A stretch of 64,000 bases of DNA, taken from contig NZ_BKAG01000011.1 of NCBI RefSeq assembly GCF_007992435.1, positions 1-64,000 on the forward strand, given 5' to 3'. The DNA comes from Prosthecobacter gellanilyticus. GTDB lineage: Bacteria > Verrucomicrobiota > Verrucomicrobiia > Verrucomicrobiales > Verrucomicrobiaceae. The notes beneath the pieces are model-generated. The model made no database searches, was not told where the DNA came from, and saw nothing but the letters and a program-made list of their open reading frames with translations. The position numbers and the translations under genes are program-made. Positions 1-61,435 of the stretch are shown in pieces. Each line of letters begins with the position of its first letter. Position 1 is the first letter of the stretch.

Positions 1-53
1 CCGTGAACCGTGAACCGTGAACAGCGAACCGTGAACAGCGAACCGAGAACCGG
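1..53 (+). repeat. Tandem array of degenerate 7-bp repeats (GAACCGA family)
   Basis: Seven consecutive 7-bp units can be read from base 1: CCGTGAA three times, then CAGCGAA, CCGTGAA, CAGCGAA and CCGAGAA, ending in CCGG. The consensus is C-[CA]-G-N-G-A-A. The array begins at the window edge, so it probably continues to the left. It ends 2-3 bases beyond the trxB stop codon. The same unit family recurs at 33984-34039 and on both sides of the four-helix-bundle gene at 60096-60524. No gene is seen inside this copy. Confidence 0.85.
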
Positions 54-33983: not shown

Positions 33984-34039
33984 GGTTCAACTTTCGGTTC
34001 GAGACCCGTAACTGCGAACCGAGAACCGCGAACTGTCAT
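33984..34039. repeat. Solo inverted pair of heptamer arrays (GAACCGA family)
   Basis: The right half reads CTGCGAA, CCGAGAA, CCGCGAA, then CTGTCAT. The left half contains the reverse-oriented GGTTCAACTTTCGGTTCGAG. The two halves can pair through TCGGTTCG and CGAACCGA around a central CCCGTAACTG. No gene lies between them, unlike at 60038-60530. It sits about 40 bases upstream of the plus-strand MFS start codon. Confidence 0.65.
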
Positions 34040-59024: not shown

Positions 59025-60035
59025 ATGTCTGACACGACCGCCTCCTCACCTGCCGCTTCGATCCCTGATCAGGAAACCATCGCCAAATCTGCCTCGTGGG
59101 TGCCGCCGTTGCGTGCGGAGATTGCCCGGGTGCTTATTGGCCAGACACATCTGGTGGACCGCCTCCTCGTCGCCCTGCTGACCAATGGTCACGTGCTGCT
59201 CGAAGGTGTGCCCGGTTTGGCCAAGACTCTCGCCGTGCGCACTCTGTCCAGCGCTCTGCACACGACCTTCAAGCGCATCCAGTTCACGCCTGACCTTCTG
59301 CCAGCAGACGTGGTCGGCACCATGGTCTATCATCCGAAGGACGGCACCTTCTCGCCACGTCTCGGGCCGATCTTTGCGAACCTCGTGCTCGCGGACGAAA
59401 TCAACCGTGCTCCTGCGAAGGTGCAGAGCGCGCTGCTGGAAGCCATGCAGGAGCGTCAGGTCACCATCGGTGAATCCAGCTACAAGCTGCCGGATCCCTT
59501 CATGGTGCTCGCCACGCAGAACCCGATCGACCAGGAAGGTACTTACACGCTGCCTGAAGCGCAGCTTGACCGTTTCCTTCTCAAAGTGCGCGTGGTGTAT
59601 CCGACTCCTGCTGAAGAACGCCAGGTGCTGGATGCCATGGCTACCAGTGCTCCCAAGCTGGATGTGAACCAGATCATCGAGGCCAAGGACATCGTGGCCA
59701 GCCGTACCATCGTGAACAGCCTCTACGTGGACGAGAAGATCCGTGACTATATCGTCTCCATCATCCATGCCACACGCGATCCAGGCTCCGTGGCCCCGCA
59801 TCTGAAGCTGCTCATCCGCTGCGGTGCCTCTCCGCGTGGCACCATCAACCTCGCCCTCGCCGCGAAGGCCCTCGCCTTCCTCGCCGGACGTAACTACGTC
59901 ACTCCGCAGGACATCAAGGACCTCGCCCCGGACATCCTCCGCCATCGTATTCTCCTGAGCTACGAAGCCGAGGCCGAGGGCGTGACCGCCGAAGATGTGA
60001 TCAAGCAACTGCTCGATAAACTTCCCGTCCCCTAA
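59025..60035 (+). CDS. MoxR-family AAA+ ATPase
   Basis: A 336-residue AAA+ protein. Walker A is GVPGLAKT near residue 60, Walker B is LVLADEINRAP near 120, followed by KVQSALLEAMQERQVT, the arginine-finger region DRFLLKVRVVYP, and the lid domain with YVTPQDIKDLAPDILRHRI. The ATG at 59025 is used; a TTG 13 codons upstream lacks homology. MoxR chaperones activate von Willebrand-type proteins such as BatA/BatB. The downstream DUF58 and VWA genes support this role, but a repeat-flanked insertion of about 490 bases separates it from them. Confidence 0.93.
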   Translation: MSDTTASSPAASIPDQETIAKSASWVPPLRAEIARVLIGQTHLVDRLLVALLTNGHVLLEGVPGLAKTLAVRTLSSALHTTFKRIQFTPDLLPADVVGTMVYHPKDGTFSPRLGPIFANLVLADEINRAPAKVQSALLEAMQERQVTIGESSYKLPDPFMVLATQNPIDQEGTYTLPEAQLDRFLLKVRVVYPTPAEERQVLDAMATSAPKLDVNQIIEAKDIVASRTIVNSLYVDEKIRDYIVSIIHATRDPGSVAPHLKLLIRCGASPRGTINLALAAKALAFLAGRNYVTPQDIKDLAPDILRHRILLSYEAEAEGVTAEDVIKQLLDKLPVP

Positions 60036-60037
60036 AA

Positions 60038-60074
60038 GTTCTCAGTTCGCTGTTCTCGGTTCACAGTTGGCTGT
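60038..60074 (-). repeat. Left heptamer array of the four-helix-bundle unit
   Basis: Read on the plus strand as AGTTCTC, AGTTCGC, TGTTCTC, GGTTCAC and AGTTGGC; on the minus strand these are the same C-N-G-N-G-A-A units as in the other arrays. It begins two bases after the moxR stop codon and ends about 22 bases before the start codon of the four-helix-bundle gene. Confidence 0.85.
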
Positions 60075-60095
60075 GAAAGGCGCATCCTCGCGACT

Positions 60096-60524
60096 ATGAC
60101 AATAAAGAGATTTGAAGACATCGAAGGCTGGCAGATGGCACGAAACCTGTGCCAGGAGATCTTTCGTATCTCGTCCCAAACGACTTTGGATCGTGATTAT
60201 GGTCTGAAAGATCAGATGTCTGGTTCGTCGGGTTCCATCATGGACAATATTGCAGAAGGTTTTGATTCGGGCACCAACCCTGAGTTTATCCGTTTTCTTC
60301 AATACTCGAAACGCTCATGCTCCGAACTTCAAAGCCAACTCTATCGCTGCCTTGATCGCGGACATATTACGGTAGAGACCTTTGATCCCTTGTATGCTTC
60401 AGCAGCTTCCACGCGTGGTAAGATTGGAGCATTTATCCAATATCTTTCCAGCAATCCCCGGCCTGTGAGCACTATGAAAGCGCGTCATGCTCAGAAACCG
60501 AGAACCGAGAACCGAGAACTGTGA
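60096..60524 (+). CDS. Four-helix-bundle (S23/Avd-like) protein
   Basis: A 142-residue protein of the 23S-rRNA-intervening-sequence / four-helix-bundle family (TIGR02436-like). The start FEDIEGWQMARNL, the segment YGLKDQMSGSSGSIMDNIAEGF and FLQYSKRSCSELQSQLYRCLDRG are characteristic. Members form pentameric rings and include the Avd accessory protein of diversity-generating retroelements; the biological role of stand-alone copies is unknown, and it is not a ribosomal protein. The last ~10 residues (QKPRTENREL) are encoded by the heptamer array itself. Its TGA overlaps the putative GTG of the DUF58 gene. Base composition is more AT-rich than its neighbours, supporting insertion. Confidence 0.88.
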   Translation: MTIKRFEDIEGWQMARNLCQEIFRISSQTTLDRDYGLKDQMSGSSGSIMDNIAEGFDSGTNPEFIRFLQYSKRSCSELQSQLYRCLDRGHITVETFDPLYASAASTRGKIGAFIQYLSSNPRPVSTMKARHAQKPRTENREL

Positions 60525-60530
60525 ACCGCG
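60498..60530 (+). repeat. Right heptamer array, overlapping two reading frames
   Basis: CCGAGAA three times, then CTGTGAA and CCGCGCG. It encodes the C-terminus of the four-helix-bundle protein and contains the GTG used as the apparent start of the DUF58 gene. Confidence 0.85.
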
Positions 60531-61435
60531 CGAAACCTGAAACGGAAGACGAACGCCTCACGCGCATTTTAAAGCGTGTGAGGAAGATCGAGCTCATCAC
60601 ACGAGGAATCGTGAAGGAGACCCTCGGGGGTGCCTATCACTCCCGGTTCAAAGGGCAGGGGATCGAGTTTGATGACTTCCGCGAGTACCAGCCTGGCGAT
60701 GATGTGCGTTTTCTCGACTGGAACGTCACGGCGCGCATGAACGAACCTTTTGTTAGGAAGTACATCGAGGAGCGTGAGCTGACCGTCATGCTGGTCGTCG
60801 ATGTCAGCGGTTCCGGTGACTATGGCAGCGGCGAGGATAGCAAGCGTGAGCGGGCCGCCGAGGTGGCCGCAGTCTTTGCCTTCAGTGCCGTCCAGAATCA
60901 GGACAAGGTCGGCCTCATTCTCGTCTCAGATCAGATCGAGCACTATCTGCCAGCCCAGAAGGGGAGTTCGCACGCTCTTCGCTGCCTTCGCGATATTCTG
61001 AATCTCACACCCAAGAGCCGGCGCACCAATCTCACACCCGCGCTTGATCTGGCCATGGAGCGCATTCCGCACCGGGCCCTGGTCCTGGTGGTGTCTGACT
61101 TCCTCACGCAGGATCAGGCCTGGGAGCACAGCCTCCGCTCTGTTGCGGCGAAGCATGATGTCGTGGCCGCGCAGATCACCGATCCCCATGAATGGGAACT
61201 TCCCAAGGCAGGCCGTGTCTGTCTTCAGGATCCTGAAACCGGGGAGCAGTATGTGGTGAACACCTCCAATCCTGCCGTCCGCCGACTGTATGCAGAGCGT
61301 GTCGGTGAGCGGCAGGAAAGTCTCTCCCGCACTCTGCGCAAATATGGCGTGGAGAAGCTCCATGTGCGTCTGGACGAGGACTATGTCCCGGCGCTCAAAT
61401 CCTATTTCCGTTCACGCAAAAGGAGGAAACGCTGA
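60521..61435 (+). CDS. DUF58-domain protein of the MoxR/Bat complex
   Basis: A 304-residue cytoplasmic protein. The typical start region (RILKRVRKIELITRGIVKETLGGAYHS) is followed by FKGQGIEFDDFREYQPGDDVRFLDWNVTARM and a VWA-like fold with a DVSGS metal-binding motif near residue 94. DUF58 proteins work with MoxR and VWA partners in protein folding or envelope stress functions (aerotolerance locus). The start is a GTG inside the heptamer array, so the native start may have been replaced by the inserted unit; a GTG at codon 20 is the next option. Its stop overlaps the next ATG (TGATG). Confidence 0.9.
   Translation: MNRAKPETEDERLTRILKRVRKIELITRGIVKETLGGAYHSRFKGQGIEFDDFREYQPGDDVRFLDWNVTARMNEPFVRKYIEERELTVMLVVDVSGSGDYGSGEDSKRERAAEVAAVFAFSAVQNQDKVGLILVSDQIEHYLPAQKGSSHALRCLRDILNLTPKSRRTNLTPALDLAMERIPHRALVLVVSDFLTQDQAWEHSLRSVAAKHDVVAAQITDPHEWELPKAGRVCLQDPETGEQYVVNTSNPAVRRLYAERVGERQESLSRTLRKYGVEKLHVRLDEDYVPALKSYFRSRKRRKR

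Follow-up and report, generated by a model that had tools for sequence, protein, structure and literature searches.

The window, a stretch of 64,000 nucleotides from Prosthecobacter gellanilyticus (contig NZ_BKAG01000011.1), contains a moxR gene encoding an AAA+ ATPase (59025–60035, + strand) followed by a second host gene (60521–61435, + strand) that we take to be DUF58, the name given by a preceding sequence-only reading; a search with NCBIfam profiles returned no match. Between the two lies a four-helix-bundle gene (60096–60524, + strand, 142 aa), bracketed by a left array of tandem repeats (60038–60068, − strand) and an inverted right array (60496–60526, + strand). Each array has five AAC cores (GTT on the + strand in the left arm) spaced at exactly 7 nt, with the unit AAC-N-G-N-G, and together they form a 31-nt inverted pair that is 84% complementary; the arrangement is thus as the sequence-only reading had described it in the moxR–DUF58 junction. 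Its count of five heptamers on the left and four to five on the right stands if the terminal core is included, whereas strict matching to its consensus, CNGNGAA, gives four heptamers in each arm. Two bases separate the moxR stop codon from the left array. The right array encodes the C-terminal residues of the four-helix protein, as had been recognized; what had been missed is that its last unit also provides the GTG with which the DUF58 gene begins (60521), in a GTGA overlap with the four-helix stop codon. In the predicted RNA of the element the two arms pair as a closing stem (z −2.66; 2 of 100 shuffles fold as well).

Two gene-less CNGNGAA arrays lie elsewhere in the window, one of four cores (34010–34033, + strand) and one of seven exact units (1–52, + strand) that is cut by the contig end and sits next to a gene we presume to be thioredoxin-reductase-like. 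The contig begins within this seven-unit array, and the assembly may therefore have broken at a repeat. Throughout the 7.65 Mb genome a tandem run of three exact CNGNGAA units gives 85 + 66 matches, against 0 for a reversed control pattern; the window arrays are therefore not a product of chance.

The encoded protein matches PF05635 (E = 7.3e-28, above the cut-off) and TIGR02436, 'four helix bundle protein' (91.8 bits, cut-off 24), the family of the 23S rRNA 'intervening sequence protein' (23S_rRNA_IVP), whose four-helix fold is reproduced in an AlphaFold2 model (pLDDT 93.8). Four-helix 'S23' proteins are widespread, and stand-alone copies have hitherto been without a known role. The sole PDB sequence match at E up to 1 is 2gsc (XCC0516 from Xanthomonas campestris, five chains). 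Foldseek with the model returns 2gsc (E = 1e-5) and 2rld, also of the S23 family (chains A–E listed), followed by the matches Avd (4dwl, E = 0.07) and a diversity-generating retroelement (DGR) ribonucleoprotein (8ub7), both weak by E-value. The X. campestris S23p is described in an excerpt of PMC4990558 as a homopentameric toroid. The window protein belongs to this pentamer-forming family, and a five-membered ring is predicted for it by relatedness to the solved, five-chain relatives 2gsc and 2rld. Estimates of dN/dS, in which many dS values are near or above 1, fall at 0.05–0.28 in 13 of 17 protein pairs (the others comprising one of 0.92 with very few changes, one of zero for an identical protein and two undefined), indicating purifying selection on the four-helix protein.

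Across the genus, the DUF58 gene is present in 35 other genomes. Of 29 moxR–DUF58 junctions compared 28 were readable, and the four-helix gene is absent from all 28, so that a check capable of overturning the sequence-only reading left it standing, though only at empty sites whose DUF58 proteins are distant (77–87% identity). Exactly two CNGNGAA units occur at the DUF58 start in 12 of these junctions, a diverged form in one (L087), no two-unit run in 13 and another insert in two. The DUF58 start codon of the 12 relatives lies within the two units, and the array there seems to have been taken into the coding region. The two junctions with another insert (L079 and L091) hold small ORFs with the Walker-A motif AGPNGAGKTT, zeta-toxin-like by eye; the moxR–DUF58 junction may be an insertion hotspot. 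In the genus as a whole, the subfamily of the window gene is found at four or more different junctions, with flanks judged by reading.

Arrays that lack a gene are commoner where the cognate element is present. Across 39 genus genomes, three-unit CNGNGAA matches range from 0 to 151, with the reversed control matching once each in G014 and G033. After subtraction of a gene's own arms, the median is 28.5 in the eight genomes with an armed gene or its remnant, a class assigned by eye from flanks, and 1 in the 31 others (Mann–Whitney p = 0.003), which supports an association, across genomes, between dispersed heptamer arrays and the cognate gene. The difference remains when own arms are included (medians 32 and 1, p = 5e-4), when the six intact carriers are taken with own arms subtracted (median 44, p = 2e-4) and when the P. 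gellanilyticus genome is removed (p = 0.008). Gene-less arrays follow their cognate gene, with exceptions: six genomes (G014, G028, G057, G025, G004 and G026) have 15 to 65 matches and no CNGNGAA-armed gene found, and G005 has an armed gene and 0 matches beyond its own arm. G003 carries the subfamily with another unit and has no matches; in G014, too, the subfamily has another unit. One locus (L025, G000:C7:26015-26796) consists of ~720 bp between inverted CNGNGAA arrays, with no four-helix match and a six-core period-10 array inside.

The arrangement extends well beyond one unit. The P. gellanilyticus genome has six PF05635 genes, all six between inverted short-period arrays and with six different units, including AGTTTCA, CGGTNRR, a GTTTGC unit (period 10), CNGNGAA and AATGACCAAGG. 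The consensus proposed from the window accordingly holds for its own subfamily and fails as a general unit, other four-helix genes having units of period 7, 8, 9, 10 or 11; a search for CNGNGAA alone therefore finds only a slice. The family itself is found in 51 of 56 relatives' genomes. We scored left against inverted right flanks in a cross-phylum set (the best 80 of 530 relatives, in 17 phylum-level groups assigned by record titles), revealing a median of 21.5 for a locus's own pair compared with 10 for mismatched pairs (95th percentile 20, 99th 27), a null that is inflated because unrelated loci have units such as AGGAGTC in common. Above its 95th percentile are 44 of the 80 loci and above its 99th are 19, a level reached by 3 of 80 direct-orientation controls and by 0 of 72 far-flank pairs; the 36 loci below the 95% threshold include many with weak arrays. 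Of 160 near flanks, 44% reached a fixed score for short-period arrays; of 152 far flanks, 5% did so.

Protein and repeat also vary together. A clear inverted repeat is present in 124 of 175 elements (121 once three duplicates are removed), and among the 121 the similarity of proteins correlates with the similarity of arms, both over all pairs (Spearman 0.33; 0 of 500 permutations as high) and over the 4,451 pairs from different phyla (Spearman 0.30; again 0 of 500). By this measure each four-helix subfamily has its own unit, and the unit tracks the protein across phyla. The genes lie mostly in sense: 55 of 73 loci with both neighbours called are in sense to both and 2 are antisense to both (binomial p = 2e-14), compared with plain-ORF triplets that lie on the same strand as both sides in 32 of 63 cases (Fisher p = 0.004).

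Two further loci types are recorded here for their arms. Ten loci (L003, L045, L049, L051, L052, L055, L056, L061, L064 and L065) represent one apparently orthologous insertion, and in some species nearly all units of both arms are GTTTAC-type in place of GTTTGC-type, a concerted change. L062 has inverted ends of ~87 nt in which a palindrome common to both, GGTCGCTTCGCGACG, precedes the 7-nt units; these ends are possibly a hybrid with a REP-like end.

Counting the repeats reveals a preference for five. With three duplicate loci removed, 237 of 342 flanks tested pass as arrays (against 20 of 160 far flanks in a separate count), and five is the mode of cores per passing arm (95, or 40%), with four in 43, six in 29 and 10 to 24 in some. 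It is the mode at period 7 (61 of 161), period 8 (16 of 36) and period 10 (15 of 21), from which it follows that number, and not length, is kept. Gene-less arrays are similar: among the matches listed, exactly five cores are found in 35 of 62 CNGNGAA-type arrays of this genome, followed by four (10), six (8), three (5), seven (3) and eight (1), counting arrays of at least three cores at 47 loci from the listed part of the 151 matches, with the two own arms in and window 1–52 out. In the period-10 array family of this genome five cores occur in 11 of 17 arrays, a set that includes the own arms of L003 and omits one array (C110). Within the CNGNGAA-type unit, whose AAC core is fixed by the design of the search, positions 4 and 6 take all four bases and positions 5 and 7 are nearly fixed, a pattern that looks like repeated protein contacts and not like slippage.

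Cyanobacterial plasmids provided five sites that are found both filled and empty, in flanks that are about 90–97% identical. Site A is filled in Trichormus and Scytonema (L332, L339) and empty in Nostoc carneum and Tolypothrix (L337, L338), at ~97% identity. Site B is filled in L334 and L343 and empty in L341 and L342 (~90% identity), with a phage-integrase gene as neighbour in filled and empty alike. Site C is filled in L333, L351 and a broken copy, L346, and empty in L344, L345, L347 and L350; site D is filled in L345 and empty in L344, L347, L350 and L333; site E is filled in L336 and empty in L348 and L349. The added DNA at all five measures ~410–520 bp and is made up of arm, gene and inverted arm, extended at one end by up to ~35 nt. 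It lies in sense between genes that run in one direction. Proteins from sites A, C and E are 79–84% identical and have one common unit at three different sites. No transposase lies inside the five plasmid inserts or the window element, as the sequence-only reading had observed for the latter, and its proposal that gene and arrays insert as one unit next to stop codons finds direct support at the five sites. That array, gene and array constitute a mobile unit entering whole between operon genes is well supported by these sequence comparisons.

No target duplication of fixed length was found across the five plasmid sites: three have short repeats (site A, 5 bp exact or 8 bp with one mismatch; site C, 5 bp or ambiguous by partner; site D, 3 bp) and two have lost target sequence (11 nt at site B, 13–16 nt at site E). 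Nostoc C052 retains at site A a short relic (L340) of one array and a broken gene start, which would be one way to a gene-less array. On a Riemerella plasmid (L331) the four-helix gene lies in sense within an operon, between an iron-sulfur assembly gene and sufB. One query protein gave no match among 50,697 phage records, which lends no support to carriage by phages.

We consider it probable that the window harbours a transposase-less mobile element whose protein, of a pentameric family, reads the element's own five-unit ends through putative binding, and we strongly infer that the predicted pentamer reads five units. The protein ring would bind its own arms as a single strand of RNA or ssDNA, each repeat being taken by one subunit; a single strand is likelier than duplex DNA because a spacing of 7 to 11 nt is tolerated and five nonetheless remains the commonest number. 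Once bound, the ends, closed as a hairpin, would form the substrate for insertion, with nicking and joining falling either to the ring or to the host's enzymes of replication and repair. As the element encodes no transposase, recombinase or reverse transcriptase, the ring may do or recruit strand transfer. Gene-less arrays and short inverted pairs would represent miniature copies or relics.

Movement might instead be supplied in trans by Y1 (HUH, RAYT-like) transposases encoded elsewhere, as with REPINs, leaving the four-helix gene a passenger or helper. Such help is possible, with Y1 genes in 39 of 39 genus genomes and 19 in this genome, and inverted array pairs could fold into REPIN-like hairpins. 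We nonetheless regard this explanation as unlikely: a two-unit CNGNGAA run occurs at 0 of the 19 Y1 loci of this genome (up to ~1.5 kb each side), Y1 number is unrelated to array number (rho 0.04, p = 0.82) and 0 of 5 filled plasmid inserts contain a Y1 gene. On the first two of these results we reject Y1 transposases as owners of the arrays. Most of the 19 loci (L096–L114) carry inverted repeats different from these arrays, which resemble REP hairpins and fall into several families.

An explanation at the level of RNA has similarly slender prospects. It holds that the arms pair in the transcript as in a 23S rRNA intervening sequence (IVS), that RNase III excises the element from the operon mRNA and that mobility is incidental. 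The protein family, inverted ends and sense orientation are those of the 23S rRNA elements, the closing stem predicted for the window RNA fits, and tandem heptamers precede the ORF of the Coxiella rRNA element (PMC4990558, in part). Taken alone, however, excision would leave the number five, the dispersed gene-less arrays and the covariation of unit and protein unexplained, and it is compatible with a mobile element and not exclusive of one. A location in rRNA itself can be set aside: the window gene sits between moxR and DUF58, and none of five exact 23S motif strings occurs in any four-helix locus searched.

The commonest number of five, the free positions within units, the apparent placement of arrays between genes and the purifying selection would also suit a host regulator that, like TRAP, binds dispersed five-unit arrays in mRNA, its own arms being autoregulatory sites; a regulatory role has been proposed for TAACTGA arrays (PMC4679880). 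We rate this lower again: a mobile element is the better fit to inverted arms on both sides, to patchy presence, to a unit that is there or missing in one piece at five plasmid sites, and to genomes that hold several different units. Ordinary heptamer microsatellites, arising by polymerase slippage and lying near these genes by chance or through a common intergenic setting, are very improbable. Bacterial heptamers are indeed common, and a study cited in PMC4679880 reported that in most of the genomes it surveyed no other class of long simple repeat was as abundant; slippage has been proposed for them (excerpts of PMC4692102 and PMC4679880), and some arms are long and homogeneous. Simple slippage is nevertheless contradicted by the contrast between near (44%) and far (5%) flanks, by the inverted arrangement, by the filled and empty sites, and by a unit in which two free positions vary while the rest is kept and the commonest number is five. 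Retro-mobility, an Avd-like action with a reverse transcriptase in trans, is scarcely credible despite the weak Foldseek matches to 4dwl and 8ub7, because PF00078 has no match in the whole genome (99.93% complete) while 3 of 14 control genomes are positive, which rules out such a partner here unless the enzyme falls outside PF00078. The idea that the variable positions are DGR-mutated template adenines was also given up, since adenines are kept in other families, the GACAATNA unit being one example.

The preferred reading, a mobile element with a ring that reads its ends, has a broader form that we hold to be evenly poised between right and wrong. It proposes pan-bacterial one-gene mobile elements in which a five-membered ring recognizes single-stranded ends of five tandem units, one for each subunit, with a lineage-specific unit as 'address'; they would be the source of many unexplained bacterial heptamers, and 23S rRNA intervening sequences would be members settled in rRNA. 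The link between four-helix protein and repeat gives these proteins a testable activity and at least some repeats a source, and it brings in a mobile element with ends that are, it seems, counted to five and not simply matched. The spread of rRNA intervening sequences, an old question, can now be tested directly. Should every protein read a unit of its own, the family would form a natural collection of repeat-binding rings that differ in address.

Several known systems share parts of this design. REPIN/RAYT systems (RAYT, REP-associated tyrosine transposase) combine dispersed short repeats, some in inverted pairs, with a linked gene. The same features are seen here; the element differs in having no Y1 transposase and in ends built of tandem 7–11 nt units, not single REP hairpins. 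With insertion sequences and MITEs the comparison covered transposases inside the inserts, of which there are none, and ends shared with transposases of the genome, where the class examined was Y1. Avd of diversity-generating retroelements has the fold of the window protein, with chains up to E listed, and this genome differs from such a system in having no PF00078 reverse transcriptase. TRAP (trp RNA-binding attenuation protein) is a ring of 11 subunits. The likeness to TRAP is one of proposed logic only, a ring in which each subunit takes one repeat of a single strand; the protein is unrelated and the binding here is putative.

STRR of cyanobacteria is one of several orphan heptamer repeats, mostly intergenic, which resemble the CNGNGAA arrays in being dispersed and tandem (151 three-unit matches here, control 0). 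Others of no known source, according to excerpts of the papers concerned, are TAACTGA in Beggiatoaceae (PMC4679880), GGGGA(C/T)T in Nostoc and GGGAATC in Xanthomonas, the last often in inverted pairs (PMC4692102). No source gene is named in those reports, neither S23 nor four-helix (or four helix) occurring as a word in the two papers searched, and we found no literature linking four-helix proteins with heptamer repeats among open-licence PMC papers. A Nostoc locus (L311) has TAACTGA-type arrays on both sides of its four-helix gene, and its genome, with 21 exact TAACTGA matches counting the own arm (control pattern 5), ranks first among the eight searched. In Sphaerospermopsis (L146) a four-helix gene is preceded by a GGGGACT array that has no inverted partner. 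The elements described here are a possible source of the orphan heptamer repeats scattered in bacterial genomes.

The closest comparison is with the 23S rRNA intervening sequences of Leptospira, Coxiella and others, which agree with the window element in protein family, in an ORF between terminal inverted repeats and in sense orientation to the host transcript. PMC4990558 describes two to three heptamers in tandem ahead of the Coxiella ORF; the same text repeats an older idea (citing a 1993 paper) that the ORF aids mobility, but its own argument is that the Coxiella gene is decaying and that no protein is made from it. The window element differs in lying between the moxR and DUF58 protein genes and not within 23S rRNA, in having arrays at both ends, mostly of five units, and in belonging with dispersed gene-less arrays and with filled and empty plasmid sites. 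On this combination of shared and distinct features, rRNA intervening sequences look like relatives of these elements.
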